Of a DNA stretch of 60,937 bases, positions 4,457 through 19,977 are shown in pieces (within the stretch, counting starts at the first letter, position 1; each line of letters starts with the position of its first letter). The stretch lies in IMG/VR virus record IMGVR_UViG_3300035670_000217, positions 1 to 60,937 of that record; one strand, 5' to 3'. This stretch comes from a virus. The notes below the pieces were generated by a model that was given only the letters and a program-made list of their open reading frames with translations, ran no database searches and had not been told where the DNA came from. Made by a program: the position numbers and the translations under genes.

Positions 4457-7400
4457 CTACCTGCCGCGGGTTCCTTCGTAGATCGGCAGCACGTTGTAGT
4501 TCTCCAGGAACTGTTCGTCGCGCTCCCAGCGATCCCGCGGGCGGGACTCGATCACCGCGTCGACGCCATCCAGCATCCGATTGAGGCGGCTGTTGATCAT
4601 CTGCGGCGTGATCTCGATCTCATTGCCCGGGTTGCGCTCGTTGTAGGCGTCGAGCTTGGCCCACTCGGCGTCGATCCTGGCCTCGAGCTGGGCTGCGCGC
4701 TCGGGGTTCTGGTTGCGAATCGCGTCGGCCTCGACCCGCGCCAGGCGGTTGGCGAAGCGCGACCGCACCCCGGACTGGCGGCTCATGTCGCGCCCGCTGC
4801 GGTAGAGGTAGTCCTGCACGTCGGAGACGATCGTCGGCTGGACGCCGAAGGACTTCCACCACAGCGCCGATGTCGGGATCTGGTCCGGGCGAAGCAGCAG
4901 GTCGCCTCGGGAGGTATAGGCCCCCTCGGTGCGCCAGCCCTGGGCAATGACCGGGTTCTTGATGAAGTTGGGCATCAGCTCGGCGACGGCGCCGACGCGA
5001 TCGCCGGCTTTCTCGCGCCGCCAGGCCCGCTGGGGACGGCCCACCAGGAGATCCGCCGGGATGCCCAGCGCGTCCTGCACGGAGCTGGTCCCGGGCAGGA
5101 TGTTCTGGAGGCCGATGCGGCGGCTCATGTCTATGCCCAGCGGGTAGAGCCCGCCCTTGTCAGCCACCTCGGCGATCCATTGCCGGCCGGTCTTCTCGAA
5201 GATCCACTCGCGAAGATTGTGACGCACGTCCTCGTCCTCGTCCGTGATCCACCTCCAGAGATCCTCGTAGAGCTGGCGAAGGTGATCGAGCCCGGGCGCG
5301 CCCCACACCCCGGAGAGCGCCACGATCGCCGCCACCGAGGCCGCTGCCATCATCTTGCCGTCGCGACCATGGAGGGAGGCCCAGCGATACCAGGCCTGCA
5401 GCGAGTTCAGCACGAAGGACATGAACTGGAAGATCGGCGCGCCGTGGCTGCGCAGCATCTTCGAGCGGTTGGCCTTGCCCATCATGAACTGCGACTCGTT
5501 GACGATGAACGTCGCGAAGTTCTCGGGGCTCCAGTGCTGGCCGAGCATAGTGTGCTTGGCCAGGGCATTCTTCGCGAACACCTGATTGGCCTTGGCCTGG
5601 ACGCCCTTCGCCTTGGCCATCCGCACCGCGGCGATGAAGGTTACCAGGCGGTTCATCCGCTCGACGTAGGTGTAGCTGGCGGCCACGAAGTCGATGGTGC
5701 GCTCGAGCTTGGCGGCGGCACTGCCGTCGCGGCGCCCAGAAAAGCCCATTACCTCGTGGGTGAACTGCGGCGCGAACATGCCGTCGTCCCACGCGGCCTG
5801 CACCTCGGCGCGCACGTCCGCCGGCGCATCGGCGGGGTCGAACATCTGCAGCATCATGTCCGCGGAGCCGCGCAGCCCGCCGCGCTTCCAGCCTTCGCGG
5901 GCCTGGTCGATGAAGCTGGTCATGGCCAGCGCGTCCTTGTAGGCGCGCGCCACCTCTGCCGCCGCCCTGGCCTGGCCGCCGGCCTGGGACAGGATCGGCA
6001 TGGTCATGATCGGCACCTGGGTCGCGTTGAGCGCCGCGGTGGAGACGTTGCCGGCGATGTAGAACAGGAAGCCGGTCTGGCGCAACACCGCATACTCCTC
6101 GGCAGGGTCGTTCACATAGCGCTGGTAGTCGTGGGCATACCGGCGCAGGCGCTCGCCCTTCACCCCGGAGATGGCGTCCTGCCAATCCTTCTGGTGGTGA
6201 CGGCGCGACAGGTAGCCGGCCATGCTGGCCATGTAGTCGGCGATCGATCGCTCGAAGTCGTCGGTGTAGCCGGGCACGTTGTCTGACTGGAAGAAGTGGC
6301 GACGGAAGCCGCGGCCCTGCATGGCCTGGGCAAACTCGTCGCGCACGCGGTCCCACGTCTCGTTGTCCAGGTGCGCCAGGTCGGCCAGGGAGTCCAGGTC
6401 AGCCAGGTTGATCTGGTTTTCCTCGCGGGCTCGCTGGGTGTCCAGCACCGAGATGGTGCGGTTGGCACCACCCCAGCGCTCCTTGACCTCAGCCAGGCGA
6501 CGGCGAACCTCGGGGATGGCGGCCTCGGCCTTGGCGCCGCTCTTGCTGGCCTTCCACAGCGCCAGGCGATCGCGGTAGCCGGTGATCTCCACCTTCTCGC
6601 TGTAGACGGTGCGGGTGGTCTCACGCTGCAGCGCCTTGCGCTGGCCCTGGTTGATCTGCCAGCCACCCTCCAGCTCGTTGTAGGTGGCGCCGATCTGGCC
6701 CATGAAGCCGGCCATGTCGTCGGGCACCCCGCGGGCGATCCAGCCGCCTTGCGGATTCTTGACGTACTGGATGTCGGTCAGCGTCTCGCGCACGGTGATC
6801 GCGAAGCGCCCGTAGCGGGACAGCGGGACGTAGCCGGCACGCTTGGCCTGCTCGATCTCCTCGGCCATCTGCGCCATGTTGCGCAGCCGCTCCTGCTGGG
6901 CCTGGGGCATGTCGTCGGTGATCGAGTCGAGCATAGCGCCCGCCGGATCGGTCAGGCCGGTGAACTCGGCCAGGCCCATGTCCAGCAAGGTCTGGTCACG
7001 GAACAGGTCGAGGGCATCGTCGAACATCTCGCGGAGCTGGGCGTAGGCCTCGCGCTCCACCTTGGACAGCTTGATCACCTCGCCCCGCTTGCTGAGGGCC
7101 GTGTTGAGCGGCTCCCGGCGACGCACCGGGTTGCCTGCGGCGTCGTGGACCACCACGGTCTTGAAGCCCGGGTTCTTGATGCCGGCGCGGAGTTGGAAGT
7201 CCGTGTAGCTCTCGTTGAGCAGGCGGCCCAGCTCGAGCACGCGGTTGACCCTGGCGCGGCCTTCGCCGGTCAGCTCCTTGTAGGCCCGGAACTTCGGGTA
7301 CATCTCGGCGATGATCTGGTCCCGGAACTGGTTCTGGCGCATCGCGGTGGTGAAGACCGGGGTGAACTGCTCCTCCATGCTGGCGATGGTGTAGGGGTGA

Positions 7401-10400
7401 TGGGTCCAGTAGGTGATCCGCCCGATGTCCCGGGTCACGCCGCTATCGAAGTCGGCGACGAAGGACTCAGGCTTGACCGACAGGGCGCGCTGGGCCTCGG
7501 CCACGGCGCGCCGCACCTCCTGGCGCCGCACGTCCTCGGGGACCGGGTTGCCCTCGGCGTCGACCATGCCGCCCTCGTCCGCCCGGGCGGTCACGGCCAG
7601 GGCCGGGCTGGCGGCCATCTCGCCGTTGCGCAGGGCGGCAGCGGCCAGGGCGCGGAGCTGTGCCGGGCTCACCTGGCCGAGTTGGATGCCGAAGGTGCGC
7701 ATCGCCCACGCCTTCACGCGGCCCACCATGTCGTTGACCCACGCCTTGAGGGTGCGCGGCGCAGCCTCGTAGGCCTCGATGGCGTAGGCGCCGAACTCCT
7801 CGATGCGGCGCTGCTCGCCCATGGCGTCGCCGGCGGCCTCGGCGGCCTCGATGCGCTGGCGGGCGGCGGCGAAGAAGTCACCGGCGGCCCCGGGGCTGCG
7901 GCTGTACTGGCGGTACAGGGCGGCCAGGCGGCCCTGCAGCTCGTTCCAGGCCTTGGTGCCGATCAGCGGGCGCGCGCCGGCATGGAAGGCCTCGTGCAGC
8001 AGGGCCGGCAGGATCGTCTCTGGCGTCAGGTTGCGGGCGACCAGGGTGATGGTGCCGTCTGCATCCACGTAGGCCTGGGTGCCGCGCGGCAGGTTGGCCG
8101 GAACGTGGTTGAGCACCTGGATCTTGCCGCTGGCGATCATGGCGTCGGCGGCCTCGCCCAGCTCTGACTGCATCAGGCGCTGGACCACCTCGGCATCACC
8201 CATCCGCGGCGTCCGCTCACGGTTGGCGGCCACCGATCTGGCGGTCGCGGAACGCATCTGCGCGCGGGCCGCTGCCGGCTCCTGGATCGCGCCGGTTACC
8301 TCCAACTGCCCTTCAACCAGCTCGCCGCGCAGCACGACCGGGCGGTTGTCGCGGTCGCGCACCGCCTCCAGGGCGATGAAGCCATCCTGGTTGGAGACCG
8401 CGCCGGTGGTGGTGTAGGCCTCGCCGTCGACCTCGTAGGTGCGCACGCCGGTCGATTCGCGGTTCTCGAAGTTGCCGAGCTTGCGATTGCGCTCGGCAGC
8501 GATATAGCGGTTCTCCCGCTCACCCCGGGCAGTGTCGGCGTGGTACTCGGCGAAGGCCACCTGGATCGCGTACCACTGCTGAAGCTCGGCCAGCTCGTTG
8601 ACGCGACTCTCGTCGACGCTCTGCTCGGCGACCTCGGCCTCACGCGGCTGGCGGCGCTCCAGCTCGGCCAGGTACTGGCGCTGGCTGTCGAGAGCGAGGG
8701 CCAGCTCGCGGGTCAGGTGGGCGGGCTCCAGGGCGGCACGGAAGCTGCTGGAATCCTCGGGCTTGGCCGCGGTGTGGCCGACGCTGAAATGACGTTCGCC
8801 GGTGGCCTCCAGGTAGAGGTTGGTGTTGATCACGTCCTTGCCGTAGCCAGGCGCGCGCTCCAGGGTCAGGTTGATGGTGCCGAGCTTCACGCTGACCCGC
8901 TTGGACATGTCCTTGGGTCCGGCGGCCACGTCGGCTAGGGCCTTCTGCCACAGCCGGGCGTAGGCCGACTTCTCCACCACCTCCTTGCTGAAGATATGCG
9001 GGCGGCTCGGGCGGGCAGGCAGTGGCGGCAGCTTGGTGTCACCGCGGGCAACGGCCTTCTCGCGCTTGGCCTCGGCCAGTGGCAGCTTGGCCTGGTAGTC
9101 GGCATAGGCCTCCTCGAAGGCGGCCATCGCCTCGGCCATGGCGGCGTCATGCTCGGCCACGCTGGCGGTCTCGCCGGCAAAGGAGAGATCGCCCAGCGCC
9201 TGGGGCTCCAGGCCAGCAATGGTCGCCTCGAGCTTGGCCTTGCGCTCGGGGTAGTCGCGCAGGAAGCGCTTGGCGTTATCGACGGAGATGGCGCGGCCAC
9301 TGGTCTCGGCGCGCGCCTCGGTGAGATCCCGCTCGGCCTCGAGCTTGAGGCGGAACACCGGGTTGCCGGTGGACGAGGCCATGAACTCGGCATACTGGTC
9401 GGCATCGCCTTCCGCCTCGCTCATGCTGTCGAGGCCGCCGATGCGGAACTGCTCGATGGCGCCAGCCTTGCGCTCCAGGATCTGCCACATCACGGTGTCG
9501 CTGGTGCCGTTGGTCGAGTAGGCGTGGATCTCCACCTCGAAGCCGTCGGGGTCGCGCTCGTAGAGCTTGTTGCCCTGGCGAATGATGCGGCCCTCGCGCT
9601 GCTCCACGTCAGAGGGGCGCCACGGGGCGTCCAGGTGGTGCAGGGCGACCAGGCGCTCCTGGACGTTGGTGCCGGCCCCCATCTTCGGGGTAGAGCCGAT
9701 CAGCACGCGCACCGCGCCGGCGTTGACCCGGGCGAACAGGCGCTGCTTCTTCTCGGGGGTGTTGTAGTCGTGGATGAACGCGATCTCCCCGGCGGGGATG
9801 CCCATCTCGATCAGCACTTCGCGCAGGTCGTCGTAGACCGAGAAGCCGGTGTCGGCGGTCTGCATCTCGACCTCGAACTCCTGGGCCTGGGCGAAGAACG
9901 CCTCGATCTTCTCCAGCTTGTCGCCGGCCAGGGCCGGGTCGGCCATCACGTCCTCGGAGAGCGCCACGGTCTGCTTCCACTGCTCCATGAACGGCAGGTC
10001 GCGCATGGCCTTCATGCGGGCGCGCGCCACCTTGTCGTTGAACAGCAGAGTCAGGGCGTCGCGGACGATCTTGCGCGCGTTCTTGCCGGCCTGCTTGGCC
10101 GGGGTGGACAGGTCGCTGAACACGAGCTGGGTGCCGCGGTCGTCGCTCCAGCGGTCGTAGATGTCCTTGATGCGCCGAGCCGAGCGCATCACCTTGCCGT
10201 TGTCGTCGCGCGCCGCCTGGGGGTCCACGGTGCGGATGTCGAGGGACATCTTGCGCGCATCGGAGAGCACCCACAGCGGGTTGTCGATCTTGGCGTACTC
10301 GGGATCTTGCTTGTTGGCCTCGATTCCCTGCATCCGAGCCACGAGGTAGTCCATGAACTCGGCCTGCTGCGGGGTGATCGCCGAGGTATCGAGCTGGCGG

Positions 10401-13400
10401 CCTCCGGCAGCCACCTTGGGCACCGGGAACTCGGTGCGCTCGTTGGCGCCCGTCTCGGCGTTGCTCTGGGCCTTCTCCTCGGCGTAGAGCCGCTTCAGGT
10501 CGTCCATGGTGATCACGTCGGCGAACTGGCGGTAGAGCTGCGACAGCGACTCCAGGTTCGACAGGCCAGCCAGCACGCGCCGCGGCTTGATCTTCTGGGT
10601 GGCGGTGTACTCCATCCGCGTCTCGGTGACGGCGTAGGCGCCGGCCCAAGCGTCGTAGTGATCCAGACCGCGCGCCTGCAGCTCAGGCGTGGCCAGGTAG
10701 CTCATGACGGTATACAGCTCGACCAGGGAGTTGGAGACCGGGGTACCGGTGGCGAAGGCCACGCCGCCCTGGCGCTCCTGGATGCCGCGGACCTTCACAT
10801 AGAGGTCGAAGGCGCGCTGCGAGCCCTTGGGGTCGTTCATACCGACCACGCGCTCGGAGCTGGTGGCGTACTCGAGGTTCTTGAACTCGTGCGCCTCGTC
10901 GACGGCCAGGTAATCGACGCCCATATCCTCCAGGGTGATGCCGATGTCATCCCGGGAGCGCTCGGCCAGCTTCTTCAGGCGGTCGTCGTAGCTGTCCAGC
11001 TTGTTCTGCATCTGGCGCATGGTGCGCTTGCTCTCGCCGGCCAGGCGGGCGTCCTCCATGGCCTGCTCGAGGAGCTTCTTGCGCTCCCGGATCACGTTCT
11101 GGGTATCCGATTCGCCGGGCTCGATGAAGCCGAACGAGGAGTGGCCCACGATCACCGCGTCGTAGTCGCCGGTGGCGATCCTGGCGAACAGCCGGCGGCG
11201 GTTCTTCTTGGTGAAGTCGTCCGGGGTGGCCGCCAGGATGTTGGCGCCGGGGTAGAGCTGGTAGAAGTCGCTGGCCCACTGCACCACGAGATGGTTGGGC
11301 ACCACGACCATCGGCTTGCGGGACAGGCCGAGGCGCTTGCGCTCCATGATCCCGGTGATCAGGGTAAAGGTTTTGCCGGCGCCGACGACATGATCGGTCA
11401 GCACGGCCTGGCTCTGGATCATCCGCCAGGCGGCGTTCTTCTGGTGGCGGCGCAGCTTGACCGCCGGGCTCTGGCCCACGGTCTTGAGGTACTTCTCGCC
11501 GTCCCACGTCCGCTCCCGGTGGGTGTTCATCTTGCGGTTGAAGGCGTCGACCACCTGGGCCTGGCGCTGGGCGTCGGAGTAGGCCCACTCGCCGAACACC
11601 TTGGCCATCCGCTCGGCCAGGGCCGTGACCCGGGTGCTGGCGGCCTTATCGACGTAGCGCTCGTCGCCCCTGCCGCGCCACACGGTCAGGCTCTTGCCCG
11701 AGGTGGCGGCGTTGAACAGGGTAATGATGTCCGCGTCGGGATCGTTGAACTGCACCCCGAGGTCGGTCAGCTCGCCGGTGACGCCACGCCCCTTGATCAT
11801 GCCCACGGTGTCGATGATGTTGACGGTGGCGCCGCGCACGCCCAGCGCCTCAAGGAAGCCCTCGAAGATATCGGTGGGCATCCAGGTGCCGCGCATGGAG
11901 GGGGTGATGCGCTCGGCGGTCAGCGGGGCAGGCTGCACCGCCTCCAGGGCGCGAGCATTGGCCTCCAGGCCCAGCGCCAGGGCCTCGTCGAGCTTGCGCT
12001 TCACGTTGCCCGAGAGGTACGCCTCGGCGTGCTCGTAGGCCTCGATGGCAGGGTCGTAGAAGATCGCCGGGGCGTCGCCAGTGGAGAGATCCTCGATCAG
12101 CGCCTTGATCGGCTGGCCGGTGAGGTCGGACATGTAGGCCAGGTCCAGCTTGCCGCGCTCGGAGAGCGAGATGGTCAGGGCGTCGCGAGGCGAGTCGGCG
12201 CTGGTGATCTCCCGGTAGGGGTAGGCCACGCGCTGACTCATGATCGCCGCCTTCTTGGCCGACGACTTCTTCGGCTTCACGCCCATCACCTTGGCTTCGG
12301 CAGGCTTGATGGCCGGCTGGTAACCGGACTCCAGGCCCACCTCAACGCCGATATCGCCAGCCAGCAGCTTGATGTTGTCCGGGTCGGAGATCAGGCCATG
12401 ACTGGCCACGAAGGCGTCGTAAGCCTGGTTCAGCTCCTGGCGCAGGGTGTCCATAGCCGGATCGTCCGACTTCTCGGCGCGGATCAGGGCCAGGGTCCGG
12501 TTGCGCAGGTCCATCAGCTTGCGCAGGGTGTCGTAGCCCTTGCGGCCAAGCTGCTTGCGGCCCAGCGTGGCCTCCATGGCGGCCAGGCCTTCGTCGAAGC
12601 GCCAGGCGAAGGTGGCGGGCTCGCTGATCGCCTCGCGGATGTCGAGGATCGCCTGCTCGGCCTTGGTCGGGCTGGCCTTGGGCTCGCCCTTGGCGTCCAG
12701 GGCCAGCTCGGCGACCTCCAGGAAGGCGGCCACCTGGGCGTCCGTCGGCATGGCGCCCTCGCTGTCGCGCAGCGCCTTGGCGGCATTGATCGCCTGTTCC
12801 CACTGGGCCGCCTGCTCGCGCCAGTAACTCTCCGGGGTGATCTCCTCGATCACCGCGTTGCCGCTGGGGTCGTCAAGGTCGCGGCGCAGCAGCCTACCCT
12901 CGGGGTCGAGCATCATGCCGCCCACGGGGAGGTCGCTCACGTTGAGCATCGCCGCCCCCACGTCCTTGTCGACGTTGGTCTCGGCCATGATGCCCTCGAG
13001 GTCGGCCCAGTCCTCGGCCAGGATGCGATCGACCTCGGCACCGATGTCGCGCCCGTCGCTCTCGACGGTGTACTCCTGGCCGTCGCCGCGGTACATGGAG
13101 CCGCCCATGCTGCTCTTGCCGAGGATGTGCTGGGGGTTCTCCTGGAAGTAGCGGTTGACCCGCATCTTCACACCATCGACCTCGATCTCGCCGTTCACGT
13201 CGAGCCAGGCGGCGTTGGCGTCGCCCACCTCGTCGGCGCGCAGCTTCTGCAGGAACACGATGTCGGTGGTGACCGAGGTGCCGGCGTTCTGCTCGAAGGC
13301 GTCATTGGGCAGCCGGATCGCACCGAGGAAGCGGAAGTGCTTGGCCAGGTAGTCGCGGGCCTCGGGGTTGGCGGTATCCAGGAAGCGATGGGTCACCACC

Positions 13401-16400
13401 ATCTGCATCACGCCGCCGGGCGCCAGGTGGTCGCCGGCCTTGCCGATGATGTAGTTGTGGATGCGCATCCCGTCGAGATGGCCGTGCTGCTTGCTCTTGT
13501 CGCGAATGCGCAGCTCGCCGAACGGCGGGTTGCCGATGGCCAGCCGGAACACGCCGTTGGCGAACGGGGCGTCCTGGAAGCCGGTGGCGGCCAGCACGTT
13601 GGCCTCGGGGTACAGCAGGCTCGCAATGGCGCCGGTCACGCTGTCCAGCTCGGCGGCGTGCCACTCGGTGGCGGCGGCGAGATCCGCCGGCTGCAGGCCG
13701 AGGAAGTTGCCGGTGCCGACGGTGGGCTCTAGGGCGCGGCCTCCGGTGAAGCCGAAGTGCCGGGCGGCGCGCCACATGGCGTCGACCACCCCCTTGGCGG
13801 TGTAGTGGGCATCCCGGGTGGAGCGGGCCGCGGCCTCGTACTCCTCGGGCGTCAGCAGGGCGCGCAGCTCGGCCTGGGCGCGGCCATACATGTCGGTGGC
13901 GCCGCGCTTCTTCACGTCGAACACCGACTTGAGCCCACCCCAGCCGACGTAGCGGGCCAGCACAGCCTGCTCTGCCGGGGTCGCGAAGCGTCCCTCGCTG
14001 ACGATCTCCTTCATCAGGCGGATCGCCTCGAGGTTGCCGCTGATCTTCTGGCCGGTGGTGCCCTCGCCGAGGCCCAGCTCGTCGGTGATGACGAAGTTGC
14101 CGGGGTTCTCGCCCTCTAGCTGGTGGGGCCGGTCCTCAGTGCGTCCATGGGGTTTATTGGCGGGCGATTTTCCGGCTCGGGGGTCAGAACGTCGTCCTCC
14201 GGCCCCGGGGGCGGCACCAGGGCCAGCGCCCTCGCCTCGGTCCACGCCGTCGGCTCGTCCAGACCGATCGCTATCAGGCTGTCCATCTCCGACCGTGTTA
14301 TCCGGGCGAGCGCCATCGACTGGCGCTGGATCTGCTCCGGGTTCAGCTTGCGCACCTGAGTGCGGTGCTGAGTCCACCAGTGATTCAGTATCTGGGTCTG
14401 TATCTGCTCCAGGGTCACGGGGCATCTCCTCTCGAGGAATCGGCGGCGCCACACCGGGGTCGCGACGATCAATCAGGTTGCTTTGCAGGTGGTCGGCCAG
14501 CGGGCCGATCTCGGCGTCGTTGATCGCCACCTGAGTATCGTCCTTGAGGAACTTCTTCGCACCCTTGACCTTGGCGCGCACCACCGCGACGAACAGCTCG
14601 CGGGGCATCCCTTCGGGACGGTGGAGGATCGTCTCGTAGGCGGTCACCGGCTCGTCGCCGAAGGCGCGGCTCTCGTAGCTGCGCGTCTCGATCTCCAGGT
14701 TGTAAGGGGCGCGGCGCTCCAGGATGAAGCCCTTGCCCTCCGGGACCACCACATAGACGCCCAGCAGGTCGTTGTCCTTGATGAACTTCTCGGCGACCCG
14801 CTCGGTTCGCCAGCGCTGCCGGCCCTCGGGGCGCAGCACCGAGTCGGTCGGGCGAGGCGCCGGCTGGTCACCGCGCTCGGGGCGAGGCTGTGACGGGGCA
14901 TCGGCGCGCTGGAGGTTCTGCTGCTGCACGTTGAGCTTGCGGTGCAGGAACTCGGCGCCCATCTCGATCTGCTCGGTGTACTCGTCGTCGGCCTGGGGGT
15001 CGGCGAGCTGCTCCTCCTTGAGGCGGCGACCCTCCAGGACATCCTGCTCGGTCAGCTCTGGCTTCCTGGCCAGCTCGCGCAGCTTGGCGATGCGTGCCGC
15101 CTGGCGGGCCTTGGGGCTGCCGCCCTCGGTGGCGGTGCTGGCGCCGGAAGTCATTCGCTCGAGATCCTGGCGCAGCTCGGCCAGTAGGGTCTCGATGTCG
15201 CGGATCTTCGACTCCAGGCGGGCATCGGTGACCATACCCTGCTCGTCGCGGATGGCAGCCAGCTCGGCCCAGTCCTCGCGCAGTTCTGTCATGCGCTCGC
15301 GGATGCCCTCGGGCGTGCTGGTGTCGTAGGTGCGGCTCTCGCCGACGCGGCGACCTTGCTGGGGCGGCGTCTCCGCAGGCGCGTCAGCTTCGGGCGCAGC
15401 CTCGGCGCTGGCGATGACCTCCTCGCTGACCACCGCGGAGGTGGGCGCGTCCTCCTCGGCAGCCGGCTCTGCCAGCATGGCCTCATGCTCGCGCTTGGCG
15501 GCGTCCACCGGGGTCATGCCTTCGGTGTCCAGGCCAGGGTAGTTGCGCGCACCCTCGTAGAAGGACAGCAGGTAGGGCTTAACCTCAGTCCCAAGGTCGT
15601 CGATCATCGCCTTGGCGTAGTCGGAGAAGCGGCGCACACCGGACTCGATGTAAGCGCCGGCGATGGTCATGCCGTCGACCAGCATCTCGGGGTCCAGGCC
15701 GGTGTTGATCTGGCCCAGCTTGGCCTTGAGGCGGGCGCGGGCGGCGGCCACCTTGTCTTCGGTGAAGATGGTGTTGCCGGCGAACTGGCCGACAGGCTCC
15801 TGTCGATCAATCGGCGATTCTTCGACACGTTCGGCGGACGTGTCCTCGGCGTCGACAGGTTGCCCCTTCACCTGAATGGGGTCTCCTGGCGACCAGCCTG
15901 CCGGCGCCTCCTGGGCGGCCATGTTGCGAAGTTGGCGCAGGCGTCTCTCGGCAGCCCGCAATTTGGCCACGTTCTCCTCGGTCTCGGGTTCTCGGCGCAG
16001 GCGCATGACGCGGCGCTTCTGTGTCGCGATCTTGGCGCTCACCGCATCCTGGTACTGGGGCGTGAAGTCCGCAGGCGTCGCGACCGGCGCGCTGCGCTCA
16101 ATGGCCCAGCCGCCGTAGATCTGCACCACGCGACCCTCGATGCGCCGGTTGCGCATGGCGTTCTGCGCCTTCTCGAAGCTCGCGAACGGGGTGTTGCGGG
16201 TGGTCAGGATCAGGTCGCGGTCAGGCGCGGCCGCCGGCGTCACCTCGGCAGTGCCCGGGGTGGCATCGGTGTCCTGGGCGACCACCTCACGGTTGTCGCG
16301 GGAGGGGGTGGGCTCCTCGATGGGCTGGCCCTGTTGCTCGCCGCGCAGCCGGTCCACACGGATGAAAGAACGGCCATCCTTACGGAAGGCGTAGGGGTCG

Positions 16401-19400
16401 ATCTCCTTGGCCTCGGCCAGCGGGATGTCGCGCAGGACGCCGGTCAGCTCCCTGCCCTTGCGGGTGGTGTGCCGAACCAGGGGCTCGCCGGTCGGCGCCG
16501 TCTCCTCCTGCTCGGACTGCTCCATGAAGGCCTCGCCGTCGACCATACGGGCCTCACGCTCGGCCTGGGCGCGCGCCAGCAGCTCGGCCATGTCGCTGCC
16601 GCGGGCCAGGGTTTCGCCGGTGGCGGCGTCCACCGCGGCGAACGAGACGGCATCACCGAACCCGCTCTCACGGAACTCGATGGCGGCATCCGGGGTGCGC
16701 CACAGACCAGGGGAGGAAGGGTCGCGCTGGAAGTCCGCCGGGGCGTCGGCGAGCGGAGCGCCGGCGCGGGCCTGGCGCTGAGTGTCGGACAGCTCGGCAT
16801 GACGAACCCGCGCAGCCTCCAGGAATCTCGAGCGCTCCGGGTTGATCTGCAGCGCGTTGTCGGCGGTCGCCTGATCGGAGAACTCGGCGGCGATCAGGTC
16901 TTCCACGTCCTGGGTGGTCTCGGCCTGCTTCAGGAAGTCGATGCGCTGCTGGACCCGCTGTACATAGTCCTCGGGCAGTCCTACCCCTTCGGCGGCGACA
17001 TCAGCAGGCTGATCCAGACCAGGGCTCTCACCGTCACCAGTAGCATCTGTCGCTTCACCAGCCTCCACCACCGCCATAGGAGGAAGACCGATAGCGCCAG
17101 GATCGCCAGTAGATCCAGGAGTCGATTCACGAGGAGCCTCCATCTCGGCCTGGGCGTCCATCTCTCGCCCGGCATCGGCCACCTGCCCACCGTCGCGCAC
17201 CACGGTCACGCCGTCGGCGTCGGTGTAGGTGTACATACTGCCGTCGTCGCCCAGCACGCGGATGCGGAATCCGCCCTGGCCGTCTTCGGTATAGCTCTCC
17301 ACGGTCCCGGCAATGTCGCCGGTGCGCGTCGCCACGCTGACCCGCTCGCCATGCACCGCTTCGACCATAGCCTCGGTCTGCGCCTCGCGCATGACGCCCT
17401 CGAGCGGGCCGGACGGGGCGCCCTCGGCGCTCTCGGTCAGGTGGCCGTCAAGGATGGCGTCGGGAGTGCGGGCCGCCACCACCTCCTTGAGGGTGGTCGG
17501 GTAGTTCCAGGGGTCCAGCGCACGGGCCGCCATGATGTCGGGCGTGACCAACGATCCGCCGGACGCCTCCAGGGGCGTCTGGTTGCGATTGCGGAGGGCG
17601 CCGGGCACCCCGCGGGCACCGCTGGCCAGGTTGATGCCGATCGCGATCAGCGCCGAGGAGGAGCCGCCGATCACCGCCTGGTACAGGGTGTCGTCCCACA
17701 GACCCTTCTCCTCGTTGTAGGACATCTCCACGAAGTTCTGGATCACCGCACCGGCGCCCTCGGCGACGAACTCGGCGCCGAATGACTCCAGGATGTGGCG
17801 GATCTGGCCGACGGCCTTGCCGCGCACGTTGGACGGAATGCGCTGCAGGAGCACCGCAACCGGCGCCACCTGCACGATGCCGCCCGGGATACCGGCCATG
17901 GCCACGCGCAGCGCCTCGTCCTCACTGAGGCCGTAGTCGATGGCCCGCTGGTAAGCCTCGGCAGCGCCGGCAGGGCCGGCCAGGGCGGACGCGCCGGCGA
18001 TCGAGGCGGCGGCCTGGATGGCGGCGGTCGAACCCTTGGTCATCAGGGTGGTCAGCCAGCCCGGGCCGAGGTAGACCAGCATGGAGCCCACGCCGGCGGC
18101 GATGTCGGTGGCCACCCCCTGGTACTCCGGGTCGGCCTGCCAGGACTCGGCGATCTCGCTGAGGTCGGCACCCATGCCGCGCAGCCATTCCGCTACCCGG
18201 TTGGGTTCGCGCTCGGCCCACGCCACCACGGCGTCATGGAACTCGCTCTCGCGCTTAACCATGTCGCGCGCCCACGGCTGGACGGCGCGCAGGATCTCCT
18301 CGTCGGAGCGCCCCGCTTGCTCCATCATCCGCAGCGTCTCGGCCATCCGCAACCGGGTGGTGTCGAGCCCCTTGGCGGCGTCGAGCATCTGGCGGTCGGC
18401 CTCGACGTTCTCGAGCTGCTGGAGGATCAGGCCGGAGCCCTCGATGGTGCCGGCGACCGCCGAGGCAGCGCCCGAGCCCCCGGACTTGCTCAGGTTCTCG
18501 ACCCAGCCCAGCAGGGTGCGCTCGGAGGACGGGCGCGGCGCGGCGCCGGTGTAGCCGTCGATGAAGTCGGGCTTGTCGAAGTCGCGGCCAAACTGCTGAG
18601 CGACCTCCTGGGGGTTCTCCCGGGCGCGACGGGCCTCGCCGGCGGCGTCAACACCGAGGATGCCAGATGGGCGCGGTTCACGGGGCGCACGCGGCTCCCC
18701 CTCACCGGCGCGGCGACTCAGCACCTCGCGCTCGCTGGCCGGGGTCTGCAGGAAGTCCTTGGCGGCACCGAGACCCTGGCGCACGAGATCCAGCACGGTG
18801 CCGGTGCCCATGGTGTTGGGGTCGTTGTACTTGGGAGCGGCGCCCGACAGGGCATCCACCTCGGGCGGGGCGTTCGGGTCGCGGGCCAGCTCGCGGATCT
18901 GCTCGAGACTCAGCTCGTCGGCGTCACCCTCGATGCGGGACCGGGCTTCCGGCCGCTCGCTGCGCCGGCGCTCGGGAGCCTGCTGCACGCGCTCCCACTC
19001 GGCGCGCAGGTGCTCCTGGGCCTGGTTGAAGGCGTCGGCGCGCCGCTGGTAGTCGTCACGCTGGCGCTCGAACTCGGCCAGGCGCTCGTTGAGGGAGCCG
19101 AGGTCGCGGTTGAAGGCCTCCACCTCCTCGGGGGTGGAGATCGACGCGCGGCGCTCCTCGAACTGGGCGACCAGGGTCTCGATCTCGCCGGCCTGAGCCT
19201 CCAGGGCGGTACGCGCCTCCTCACTGGGGCGGGCGAACTCGTCGAGGCGCTTCATCTCGGCCTCGATGGAGCCCAGCAGCTCGGTGCGCTCCTGGGTGGT
19301 GAGATCCTCGAACTCGCCGGCGGTGAACGGCTGCTCGCCCTCGGCGGCCACCTCGGCCTCGGCCATGGCCTCCTGGGGTGTGCGCAGACCCTCGGCCTGG

Positions 19401-19945
19401 TTGTAGATCTCTCGGGCCTTGCCGGTGACCACCTCGGCGTACTCGCGGGTCTTCGGCCCCCACATCGAACGGTTATCCCCTCCATGGTGGGCCATGATGG
19501 CCTCCTCCATGGAGTAGCCCTTGTCCAGTCGCTCGCGAAGCTGGCGGGCGGCGGCATCGACGGACTGGGCCGGGTCGAGCGGATTGATCCCTACGCGACG
19601 GGCGGTGTCGTCGATGTACTGCATCATGCCCTTGGCGCGCCCCCACTGGGTCGGCTGGCCGATCGCGTCAGGGCGGTAGCTCGACTCCTGCTGGGCCAGG
19701 GCCATCAGCACGTTGGCCGGCACGCCGTAGCGCGCCGATGCCTCCAGGAACAGCGGAGTGAATTGCTCGGGCGGCATCAGGTTGCCGCTGGGCGCCTGTC
19801 GGGGCGACAGGCTGGAGAGGTCAGGGCCGCCGGCCTGGCGACGGGCACCCCCCACCTGGGAGAGGTCAGGAAGCTCGAGGGCGCGACCGCGAATCTCGTC
19901 GGTCACCGAATCCAGCGGGTTGCGGAAAAAGGGGTTGTTCGCCAC
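4457..19945 (-). CDS. Giant polyvalent internal virion protein (lytic transglycosylase, methyltransferase, helicase, zinc peptidase)
   Basis: About 5162 residues, a quarter of the genome. Order: SLT-type lytic transglycosylase at about 55-190 (catalytic Glu in LAQQESSYRP, near residue 87); long coiled-coil and hydrophobic regions (about 640-790); several linkers; DNA adenine-methyltransferase-like domain (EPTVGTGNF near 2073, GNPPFGE near 2138) preceded by ARYVGWGGL; SNF2-like helicase (VGAGKT near 2854, VDEAHEF near 3015, QREGRIIRQG near 3449); HEAFH zinc-peptidase motif near 3984; PLSRYGRF (PLxRFG-type) near 4371; C-terminal hydrophobic segment after about 4820. Known large polyvalent phage proteins are packaged and ejected with DNA, where such domains degrade the wall and counter host defences; that role is inferred. 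GTG at 19945 is preferred because GAGGA abuts the ATG at 19951. Confidence 0.9.
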   Translation of the reverse strand: MANNPFFRNPLDSVTDEIRGRALELPDLSQVGGARRQAGGPDLSSLSPRQAPSGNLMPPEQFTPLFLEASARYGVPANVLMALAQQESSYRPDAIGQPTQWGRAKGMMQYIDDTARRVGINPLDPAQSVDAAARQLRERLDKGYSMEEAIMAHHGGDNRSMWGPKTREYAEVVTGKAREIYNQAEGLRTPQEAMAEAEVAAEGEQPFTAGEFEDLTTQERTELLGSIEAEMKRLDEFARPSEEARTALEAQAGEIETLVAQFEERRASISTPEEVEAFNRDLGSLNERLAEFERQRDDYQRRADAFNQAQEHLRAEWERVQQAPERRRSERPEARSRIEGDADELSLEQIRELARDPNAPPEVDALSGAAPKYNDPNTMGTGTVLDLVRQGLGAAKDFLQTPASEREVLSRRAGEGEPRAPREPRPSGILGVDAAGEARRARENPQEVAQQFGRDFDKPDFIDGYTGAAPRPSSERTLLGWVENLSKSGGSGAASAVAGTIEGSGLILQQLENVEADRQMLDAAKGLDTTRLRMAETLRMMEQAGRSDEEILRAVQPWARDMVKRESEFHDAVVAWAEREPNRVAEWLRGMGADLSEIAESWQADPEYQGVATDIAAGVGSMLVYLGPGWLTTLMTKGSTAAIQAAASIAGASALAGPAGAAEAYQRAIDYGLSEDEALRVAMAGIPGGIVQVAPVAVLLQRIPSNVRGKAVGQIRHILESFGAEFVAEGAGAVIQNFVEMSYNEEKGLWDDTLYQAVIGGSSSALIAIGINLASGARGVPGALRNRNQTPLEASGGSLVTPDIMAARALDPWNYPTTLKEVVAARTPDAILDGHLTESAEGAPSGPLEGVMREAQTEAMVEAVHGERVSVATRTGDIAGTVESYTEDGQGGFRIRVLGDDGSMYTYTDADGVTVVRDGGQVADAGREMDAQAEMEAPRESTPGSTGDPGAIGLPPMAVVEAGEATDATGDGESPGLDQPADVAAEGVGLPEDYVQRVQQRIDFLKQAETTQDVEDLIAAEFSDQATADNALQINPERSRFLEAARVRHAELSDTQRQARAGAPLADAPADFQRDPSSPGLWRTPDAAIEFRESGFGDAVSFAAVDAATGETLARGSDMAELLARAQAEREARMVDGEAFMEQSEQEETAPTGEPLVRHTTRKGRELTGVLRDIPLAEAKEIDPYAFRKDGRSFIRVDRLRGEQQGQPIEEPTPSRDNREVVAQDTDATPGTAEVTPAAAPDRDLILTTRNTPFASFEKAQNAMRNRRIEGRVVQIYGGWAIERSAPVATPADFTPQYQDAVSAKIATQKRRVMRLRREPETEENVAKLRAAERRLRQLRNMAAQEAPAGWSPGDPIQVKGQPVDAEDTSAERVEESPIDRQEPVGQFAGNTIFTEDKVAAARARLKAKLGQINTGLDPEMLVDGMTIAGAYIESGVRRFSDYAKAMIDDLGTEVKPYLLSFYEGARNYPGLDTEGMTPVDAAKREHEAMLAEPAAEEDAPTSAVVSEEVIASAEAAPEADAPAETPPQQGRRVGESRTYDTSTPEGIRERMTELREDWAELAAIRDEQGMVTDARLESKIRDIETLLAELRQDLERMTSGASTATEGGSPKARQAARIAKLRELARKPELTEQDVLEGRRLKEEQLADPQADDEYTEQIEMGAEFLHRKLNVQQQNLQRADAPSQPRPERGDQPAPRPTDSVLRPEGRQRWRTERVAEKFIKDNDLLGVYVVVPEGKGFILERRAPYNLEIETRSYESRAFGDEPVTAYETILHRPEGMPRELFVAVVRAKVKGAKKFLKDDTQVAINDAEIGPLADHLQSNLIDRRDPGVAPPIPREEMPRDPGADTDPDTESLVDSAPHSGAQAEPGADPAPVDGARPDNTVGDGQPDSDRSGRADGVDRGEGAGPGAAPGAGGRRSDPRAGKSPANKPHGRTEDRPHQLEGENPGNFVITDELGLGEGTTGQKISGNLEAIRLMKEIVSEGRFATPAEQAVLARYVGWGGLKSVFDVKKRGATDMYGRAQAELRALLTPEEYEAAARSTRDAHYTAKGVVDAMWRAARHFGFTGGRALEPTVGTGNFLGLQPADLAAATEWHAAELDSVTGAIASLLYPEANVLAATGFQDAPFANGVFRLAIGNPPFGELRIRDKSKQHGHLDGMRIHNYIIGKAGDHLAPGGVMQMVVTHRFLDTANPEARDYLAKHFRFLGAIRLPNDAFEQNAGTSVTTDIVFLQKLRADEVGDANAAWLDVNGEIEVDGVKMRVNRYFQENPQHILGKSSMGGSMYRGDGQEYTVESDGRDIGAEVDRILAEDWADLEGIMAETNVDKDVGAAMLNVSDLPVGGMMLDPEGRLLRRDLDDPSGNAVIEEITPESYWREQAAQWEQAINAAKALRDSEGAMPTDAQVAAFLEVAELALDAKGEPKASPTKAEQAILDIREAISEPATFAWRFDEGLAAMEATLGRKQLGRKGYDTLRKLMDLRNRTLALIRAEKSDDPAMDTLRQELNQAYDAFVASHGLISDPDNIKLLAGDIGVEVGLESGYQPAIKPAEAKVMGVKPKKSSAKKAAIMSQRVAYPYREITSADSPRDALTISLSERGKLDLAYMSDLTGQPIKALIEDLSTGDAPAIFYDPAIEAYEHAEAYLSGNVKRKLDEALALGLEANARALEAVQPAPLTAERITPSMRGTWMPTDIFEGFLEALGVRGATVNIIDTVGMIKGRGVTGELTDLGVQFNDPDADIITLFNAATSGKSLTVWRGRGDERYVDKAASTRVTALAERMAKVFGEWAYSDAQRQAQVVDAFNRKMNTHRERTWDGEKYLKTVGQSPAVKLRRHQKNAAWRMIQSQAVLTDHVVGAGKTFTLITGIMERKRLGLSRKPMVVVPNHLVVQWASDFYQLYPGANILAATPDDFTKKNRRRLFARIATGDYDAVIVGHSSFGFIEPGESDTQNVIRERKKLLEQAMEDARLAGESKRTMRQMQNKLDSYDDRLKKLAERSRDDIGITLEDMGVDYLAVDEAHEFKNLEYATSSERVVGMNDPKGSQRAFDLYVKVRGIQERQGGVAFATGTPVSNSLVELYTVMSYLATPELQARGLDHYDAWAGAYAVTETRMEYTATQKIKPRRVLAGLSNLESLSQLYRQFADVITMDDLKRLYAEEKAQSNAETGANERTEFPVPKVAAGGRQLDTSAITPQQAEFMDYLVARMQGIEANKQDPEYAKIDNPLWVLSDARKMSLDIRTVDPQAARDDNGKVMRSARRIKDIYDRWSDDRGTQLVFSDLSTPAKQAGKNARKIVRDALTLLFNDKVARARMKAMRDLPFMEQWKQTVALSEDVMADPALAGDKLEKIEAFFAQAQEFEVEMQTADTGFSVYDDLREVLIEMGIPAGEIAFIHDYNTPEKKQRLFARVNAGAVRVLIGSTPKMGAGTNVQERLVALHHLDAPWRPSDVEQREGRIIRQGNKLYERDPDGFEVEIHAYSTNGTSDTVMWQILERKAGAIEQFRIGGLDSMSEAEGDADQYAEFMASSTGNPVFRLKLEAERDLTEARAETSGRAISVDNAKRFLRDYPERKAKLEATIAGLEPQALGDLSFAGETASVAEHDAAMAEAMAAFEEAYADYQAKLPLAEAKREKAVARGDTKLPPLPARPSRPHIFSKEVVEKSAYARLWQKALADVAAGPKDMSKRVSVKLGTINLTLERAPGYGKDVINTNLYLEATGERHFSVGHTAAKPEDSSSFRAALEPAHLTRELALALDSQRQYLAELERRQPREAEVAEQSVDESRVNELAELQQWYAIQVAFAEYHADTARGERENRYIAAERNRKLGNFENRESTGVRTYEVDGEAYTTTGAVSNQDGFIALEAVRDRDNRPVVLRGELVEGQLEVTGAIQEPAAARAQMRSATARSVAANRERTPRMGDAEVVQRLMQSELGEAADAMIASGKIQVLNHVPANLPRGTQAYVDADGTITLVARNLTPETILPALLHEAFHAGARPLIGTKAWNELQGRLAALYRQYSRSPGAAGDFFAAARQRIEAAEAAGDAMGEQRRIEEFGAYAIEAYEAAPRTLKAWVNDMVGRVKAWAMRTFGIQLGQVSPAQLRALAAAALRNGEMAASPALAVTARADEGGMVDAEGNPVPEDVRRQEVRRAVAEAQRALSVKPESFVADFDSGVTRDIGRITYWTHHPYTIASMEEQFTPVFTTAMRQNQFRDQIIAEMYPKFRAYKELTGEGRARVNRVLELGRLLNESYTDFQLRAGIKNPGFKTVVVHDAAGNPVRRREPLNTALSKRGEVIKLSKVEREAYAQLREMFDDALDLFRDQTLLDMGLAEFTGLTDPAGAMLDSITDDMPQAQQERLRNMAQMAEEIEQAKRAGYVPLSRYGRFAITVRETLTDIQYVKNPQGGWIARGVPDDMAGFMGQIGATYNELEGGWQINQGQRKALQRETTRTVYSEKVEITGYRDRLALWKASKSGAKAEAAIPEVRRRLAEVKERWGGANRTISVLDTQRAREENQINLADLDSLADLAHLDNETWDRVRDEFAQAMQGRGFRRHFFQSDNVPGYTDDFERSIADYMASMAGYLSRRHHQKDWQDAISGVKGERLRRYAHDYQRYVNDPAEEYAVLRQTGFLFYIAGNVSTAALNATQVPIMTMPILSQAGGQARAAAEVARAYKDALAMTSFIDQAREGWKRGGLRGSADMMLQMFDPADAPADVRAEVQAAWDDGMFAPQFTHEVMGFSGRRDGSAAAKLERTIDFVAASYTYVERMNRLVTFIAAVRMAKAKGVQAKANQVFAKNALAKHTMLGQHWSPENFATFIVNESQFMMGKANRSKMLRSHGAPIFQFMSFVLNSLQAWYRWASLHGRDGKMMAAASVAAIVALSGVWGAPGLDHLRQLYEDLWRWITDEDEDVRHNLREWIFEKTGRQWIAEVADKGGLYPLGIDMSRRIGLQNILPGTSSVQDALGIPADLLVGRPQRAWRREKAGDRVGAVAELMPNFIKNPVIAQGWRTEGAYTSRGDLLLRPDQIPTSALWWKSFGVQPTIVSDVQDYLYRSGRDMSRQSGVRSRFANRLARVEADAIRNQNPERAAQLEARIDAEWAKLDAYNERNPGNEIEITPQMINSRLNRMLDGVDAVIESRPRDRWERDEQFLENYNVLPIYEGTRGR
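14116..14418 (-). CDS. Putative overprinted gene inside the giant gene (100 residues)
   Basis: In another frame of the same strand, a GTG at 14418 has GAGAGGAG ending 7 bases upstream and opens a 100-codon ORF. The product starts with TLEQIQTQILNHWWTQ, continues with helices rich in Q, R and L (ITRSEMDSLIAIGLDEPTAW), and ends in a Pro-rich tail. It reads like a real protein, whereas the giant frame here is a D/P/G/A-rich linker (about residues 1843-1943) using rare GGA, CGA, CCA and TCA codons. Function is unknown. Confidence 0.65.
   Translation of the reverse strand: MTLEQIQTQILNHWWTQHRTQVRKLNPEQIQRQSMALARITRSEMDSLIAIGLDEPTAWTEARALALVPPPGPEDDVLTPEPENRPPINPMDALRTGPTS
16981..17130 (-). CDS. 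Putative overprinted small membrane protein inside the giant gene (49 residues)
   Basis: A GTG at 17130 preceded by GGAGG (6-base spacing) opens a 49-codon ORF in the same alternative frame as the other nested ORF. It encodes a strong transmembrane helix (LLDLLAILALSVFLLW), a basic patch (RWWRLVKRQ) and a second hydrophobic stretch (ALVWISLLM). Over this stretch the giant frame is a low-complexity linker with many T-ending codons (ACT, GAT, CCT, GGT), unlike its normal G/C-ending usage. It could be an accessory holin-like peptide; this is inference. Confidence 0.6.
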   Translation of the reverse strand: MNRLLDLLAILALSVFLLWRWWRLVKRQMLLVTVRALVWISLLMSPPKG

Positions 19946-19977
19946 GAGCATTCCTCACGTCATTTTCAGGCAGTCTA

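Follow-up and report, generated by a model that had tools for sequence, protein, structure and literature searches.

Polyvalent proteins carrying a methylase-SNF2 dyad have been described with phage P1 DarB as the archetype (Iyer et al. 2017, PMC5512222), and the main text of that paper mentions neither an overlap nor a nested gene. Embedded genes are known among phage lysis genes, where Rz1 lies wholly inside Rz in the +1 frame, an arrangement named for Bcep22-like phages in PMC9144972. Here we analyse an IMG/VR virus record, IMGVR_UViG_3300035670_000217, over its whole length of 60,937 bp (the window), and a 100-codon open reading frame (ORF) nested at positions 14116-14418 within its giant DarB-like gene. 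Judged from sequence evidence, this ORF is very probably a genuine overlapping protein-coding gene.

Like the published methylase-SNF2 proteins, the giant gene of the window, a record that also carries podovirus-like structural genes, combines methylase, helicase and transglycosylase domains. Its product matches PHROG 10089 (DarB-like antirestriction) and the Pfam domains SLT, Eco57I, SNF2 and Helicase_C, and it contains the dyad of N6-methylase and SNF2-type helicase that marks a DarB-like polyvalent protein. The arrangement resembles Rz/Rz1 in that a small gene is fully nested on the same strand, has its own start in another frame and was long missed by annotation. The proteins of the two systems are unrelated, however, and the polyvalent gene that houses the nested frame here is 15 kb long, with a disordered linker under that frame. 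Nested phage genes are already a known kind, and this one is apparently undescribed: no description was found in the literature, within partial coverage, and the searched passages of the JC1, Atu_ph08 and LASTA papers do not mention it. An earlier, sequence-only reading of this DNA likewise knew of no such gene inside this class of giant protein, but the architecture extends further, to plasmid methylase-helicase genes. The features under discussion are as follows.

4457-19951, minus strand: giant polyvalent gene, 5,164 amino acids, with an N-terminal SLT transglycosylase domain, a DarB-like methyltransferase and an SNF2-type helicase (PHROG 10089, Pfam)
14116-14418, minus strand: predicted nested gene, 100 amino acids, GTG start, in the +1 frame of the giant gene (composition, family profile, helix model)
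14426-14433, minus strand: Shine-Dalgarno (SD) sequence GAGAGGAG, 7-nt spacer to the nested GTG
14116-14420, minus strand: giant-frame linker over the nested gene, rich in D, P, G, A, R and S, weakly constrained in relatives
13100-14100, minus strand: conserved methyltransferase domain of the giant protein, beginning right after the nested gene; anchor for retrieving relatives

The nested frame and its predicted product

The nested ORF runs from a GTG at 14418-14416 to a TAG at 14118-14116, wholly inside the giant gene and on the same strand. The sequence-only reading had its position, codon number, start codon and 7-base SD spacing exactly right; it gave no strand, which is minus, as for the giant gene. 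An alternative in-frame TTG upstream, at 14472, would give 118 amino acids and differs from the conserved start.

An open frame of this kind could arise by chance in a GC-rich giant gene, with the odd codons of the giant frame reflecting only the composition of a disordered linker. Long runs of this sort are indeed common, as same-strand alternative frames elsewhere in the giant gene stay open for up to 412 codons; ORF length is therefore no evidence of coding and was rejected as such. Codon composition speaks against chance. The GC content at giant-frame codon positions 1, 2 and 3 is 0.85, 0.66 and 0.48 in the overlap, compared with a whole-gene mean of 0.70, 0.46 and 0.90, whereas the nested frame reads 0.66, 0.48 and 0.85, which is the usual coding signature displaced by one base. 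Such an inversion is found in only two stretches among the 5,165 codons of the giant gene, and the nested ORF is one of them. Within this single genome, composition is decisive for coding.

A profile built from the nested proteins of other phages ranked the window ORF first of 1,044 ORFs in the window (E=1e-4; next, 9.7). The match falls at the conserved place and in the conserved frame of the family, marking the ORF as a divergent member, which can be aligned to the others through closer relatives (L115-L120). As far as sequence comparison goes, homology settles that the window ORF exceeds chance.

The product is modelled as a four-helix core (residues 1-66) followed by a disordered acidic and proline-containing tail. 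The prediction is confident for residues 1-66 (predicted local distance difference test score, pLDDT, mostly >84), and the helix arrangement is the same as in the family, whose sequence pattern is HWK..P..L..G..EAW..R..L. As a single query, the window product found no match in Pfam, PHROGs, tblastn searches of phages and plasmids, or viral patterns, and no Pfam, NCBIfam or PADLOC family scored above its curated cut-off with the nested product. The sole family-level match is the C-terminus of PHROG 938, apparently the frame-shifted reading of the same domain in phage PBC5. A structure search against PDB and BFVD gave nothing below E 0.001. The top BFVD match, Q8W6J4_2 (root-mean-square deviation 2.0, template modelling score 0.60), also outside that threshold, fits half of PBC5 orf33 in length and would in that case be the same domain. 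At ~5960-6000 of the Sinorhizobium phage PBC5 loci (L014/L021) the giant gene is split and its upstream part reads on into the nested frame, as would follow from a one-base insertion or deletion. The chimeric C-terminus of PBC5 has passed into PHROG 938, which is labelled 'endolysin'.

Conservation of place, frame and start signal

The family was discovered, after single-sequence searches had failed, through the DNA around related methylases and local tblastn. The search of phage relatives proposed earlier thus gave nothing with the window product alone and revealed the family once it was confined to the neighbourhood of related methylases. The first homologs, in Itty13, LASTA and Atu_ph08, occupy the same place and frame as in the window. 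With the LASTA protein as query, the nested gene was found in 21 phage records, always inside a DarB-like/PLxRFG giant gene and never annotated separately; the hosts are Klebsiella, Erwinia, Pseudomonas, Vibrio, Agrobacterium, Sinorhizobium, Ochrobactrum and Microcystis. At the locus of Pseudomonas phage Itty13 (L019), the annotation has three large genes on the opposite strand across the giant gene, apparently an error of the kind that GC-rich DNA invites.

A ten-sequence alignment as query returned 71 IMG/VR and 22 GTDB loci. Among 104 loci from annotated phages, IMG/VR and GTDB, a set gathered with the nested protein as query, with duplicates across collections and 86 distinct proteins, the nested ORF lies wholly within an open giant frame in 96, each time in the +1 frame and just before the methylase. 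Five of the remaining eight lie apart from any giant gene, two extend past the end of their contig, and the last (L034) lies within a decayed giant gene. Relatives that keep the giant frame and carry stops in the nested one, which the sequence-only reading had named as grounds for abandoning its claim, were not found; both frames were open, in the same relative phase, at those 96 loci. At the five standalone homologs with no giant gene nearby (L093, L096, L101, L106 and L109), the corresponding frame does contain stops. One of these, from Pseudidiomarina (L106, 5974-6762), is an ORF of 262 amino acids that joins the family domain to a long C-terminal extension and neighbours methyltransferase-HNH and AAA genes.

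An unbiased set consisted of the best 80 viral loci retrieved by the methylase alone. In this set, 63 of the 80 giant genes match the nested profile at an independent E-value (i-E) below 1e-12, and SD-started +1 ORFs of the helical type occupy this place in most of the others, and likewise in Burkholderia CSP3, Pseudomonas USP_25 and Pseudoalteromonas Y7. An SD-started +1 ORF of at least 65 codons is present at the junction in 59 of 72 distinct giant genes, compared with 14 of 421 control positions (3%). The +2 frame, taken as a control at the same 72 junctions, has no SD-started ORF of at least 65, or even at least 50, codons (0/72).

The start signal is conserved as well. An SD motif precedes 75 of 80 distinct homologous starts, compared with 8.2% of in-phase control start codons; relatives that lack the ribosome-binding site or the start, a further finding that would have told against the gene, did not turn up. 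This bears on a reading in which ribosomes reach the nested frame by frameshifting and make a shorter giant protein ending in the helical domain. PBC5, whose upstream giant frame enters the nested frame, and PHROG 938, which has the nested domain as its C-terminus, are what such a mechanism would produce. The gene's own start and SD motif are conserved at 75 of 80 loci, however, and in L010-L013 and L018 a stop lies in the nested frame just two codons upstream of the ATG, which leaves almost no room to slip. The shift in PBC5 itself looks like a single-base insertion or deletion just upstream of the start, from an old sequencing error or a local mutation. We regard frameshifting as highly improbable, and initiation at the gene's own start as the better account.

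Selection in the two frames and the plasmid state

Substitution patterns were examined by codon position, in totals that include a few duplicate pairs, and by rate tests on 27 duplicate-free locus pairs using Nei-Gojobori counts. Inside the overlap, differences fall at giant codon positions 1, 2 and 3 in proportions of 50, 25 and 25%, compared with 20, 14 and 67% downstream. The pattern in the overlap is expected because position 3 of the nested frame, the free one, is position 1 of the giant frame. The ratio of nonsynonymous to synonymous differences (pN/pS) is 0.30 in the nested frame, 1.44 in the giant frame over the overlap and 0.16 in the giant frame just downstream, values of which the contrast and not the absolute size is informative, as constraint in one overlapping frame inflates the ratio of the other. 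Giant-frame pS falls from 0.376 to 0.100 over the overlap, a depression of ~3.8-fold. One locus pair, L040/L048, shows the reverse trend. The nested amino-acid sequence is thus under purifying selection at the family level, and the giant frame shows the excess synonymous constraint that the sequence-only reading had proposed to look for; its view that the linker is shaped by the nested frame agrees with the contrast between 1.44 and 0.30. Selection mainly preserves the nested protein, and what it maintains in the overlying giant frame is mostly the absence of stops.

That the giant frame is kept open at all argues against a third reading, in which an upstream gene, the small gene and the methylase gene are separate and the open frame between them is accidental. 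Some NCBI plasmid annotations do show the small gene as separate, with a shortened methylase gene behind it, and the standalone homologs show that the small gene can exist by itself. Yet the giant frame is stop-free in 77 of 77 distinct loci, compared with an expectation of ~34% per locus under synonymous shuffling, and an SD-provided methylase start near the nested stop occurs in one of 77 loci, compared with 14% in controls. In most phage annotations, and in other plasmid ones, a single uninterrupted gene spans the region. Three separate genes are therefore very unlikely, and we return to two overlapping frames.

The plasmid methylase-helicase genes share this layout: the methylase frame opens ~15-60 codons upstream of the small gene and runs through it, with the small gene in +1. 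Plasmid 'hypothetical protein' genes (e.g. WP_253595407.1), lying before DEAD/DEAH-helicase or N-6 methylase genes in Pseudomonas, Burkholderia and Xanthomonas, resemble the phage nested gene in position, +1 overlap with an open methylase frame, length, the W..P..L..G pattern and the substitution shift. For the plasmid pair L008/L199, differences by giant codon position number 12/4/0 in the overlap and 10/6/54 downstream, a shift as in the phages. Unlike the phage gene, the plasmid small genes are sometimes annotated, with the methylase start trimmed, and their sequence kinship to it is only suggestive. A second phage set (L146, L169 and L188) resembles the plasmid small-protein family. In the NCBI annotation of L008 and L199, the methylase-helicase gene is trimmed to begin only after the small gene, so that ~130 N-terminal residues present in other plasmid annotations are lost from view.

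Of the two frames, that of the small gene is probably the older, with the linker of the giant gene written over it, because standalone homologs exist, the giant linker is under low constraint and the plasmid state is simple. The nesting and the coding claimed by the sequence-only reading are thus upheld; its term, an overprinted gene, needs one correction, as the evidence favours a giant frame extended across an existing small gene over a new gene that arose within an old one.

Several observations weigh against these conclusions. Besides the query dependence of the 104-locus set and the mutual bias of overlapping pN/pS values, the window copy has diverged to ~25% identity with the core family, its nearest relatives, 55-60% identical in the methylase, are too distant for a window-specific pN/pS, phage and plasmid small proteins match only suggestively (E about 0.003-0.009), and P1 darB, when examined, had no such nested ORF. 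The want of a close relative for a rate test of its own is, with the long alternative-frame runs, what favours a chance origin of the window ORF. Against chance stand a protein family, start, SD motif, place and frame conserved across many phage lineages, together with the frame-specific substitutions, the codon-GC inversion and the 3% at control positions. For the window, chance is barely conceivable, and for the family, comparison of the loci has already refuted it.

Function, further candidates and significance

In the overlapping-gene model, a small helical protein is predicted to be translated from its own SD motif and GTG within the messenger RNA of the giant gene, in the +1 frame. Its gene would lie over the disordered linker that leads directly into the DarB-like dyad of methylase and helicase, where the open giant frame would let ribosomes continue into the methylase. 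We infer that the N-terminus of a methylase gene was extended upstream over the small gene, giving the plasmid state, and that in phages the extended methylase was joined via the linker to further domains.

As to function, we tentatively favour a partner of the methylase-helicase dyad, for instance a subunit for assembly or localisation or for control of activity. Such a role appears the most likely because phages and plasmids alike keep the nested gene fixed in cis with the dyad. A possible functional analogue is P1 Ulx, a 17-kDa protein listed as aiding DarB localisation (PMC9024508). Like the nested protein, it is small and encoded beside a darB gene, but its gene lies downstream of darB without overlap. 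Homology between the two was rejected (E=0.16, different position).

It is common for small helical proteins of phages to act on host targets. The nested protein may accordingly be real and yet independent of the methylase-helicase, an early host-takeover or anti-defence protein riding in the linker. The standalone homologs at L093, L096, L101, L106 and L109, with no DarB-like gene in the flanking DNA examined, fit this reading, as does the P1 darB gene without a nested ORF, which implies that the dyad can work alone and thereby weakens the partner hypothesis. The gene is, however, linked in cis to one and the same domain boundary in plasmids and in phages that infect alpha-, beta- and gammaproteobacteria and cyanobacteria, a pattern difficult to account for if the two had no functional connection. 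An independent role is a possibility we take seriously but consider doubtful, and the partner role is retained as our working suggestion.

A second candidate lies at the other of the two codon-GC inversions in the giant gene.

16981-17130, minus strand: candidate nested gene, 49 amino acids, GTG start, GGAGG at 17141-17137, in the +1 frame of the giant gene

Its product, MNRLLDLLAILALSVFLLWRWWRLVKRQMLLVTVRALVWISLLMSPPKG, has one hydrophobic (membrane) segment, and no homolog was found in seven related records. Inversions in other giant genes, at codons ~699-757 of L205 and at codons ~45 and ~639 of L111, may mark more linker-nested genes.

It is conceivable, though we would not presume it, that several generalisations hold jointly: that methylase-SNF2 polyvalent genes of phages and conjugative plasmids commonly carry an overlapping companion at one domain boundary, that the giants were assembled by extension over older small genes, that linkers are a general hiding place for such genes, as the second candidate in this window would illustrate, and that the companion is a required antirestriction subunit. 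DarB-like giant genes account for between a fifth and a quarter of these phage genomes. Despite repeated annotation of such genes, every phage annotation examined missed the conserved nested gene, whose presence would affect knockout or domain-deletion studies of the linker region. The locus is a clear example from nature of a multidomain-protein linker lying over what is probably an older gene, with independent replicates for studying the evolution of dual coding, and the nested protein is a candidate for a missing partner of the methylase-helicase antirestriction module.
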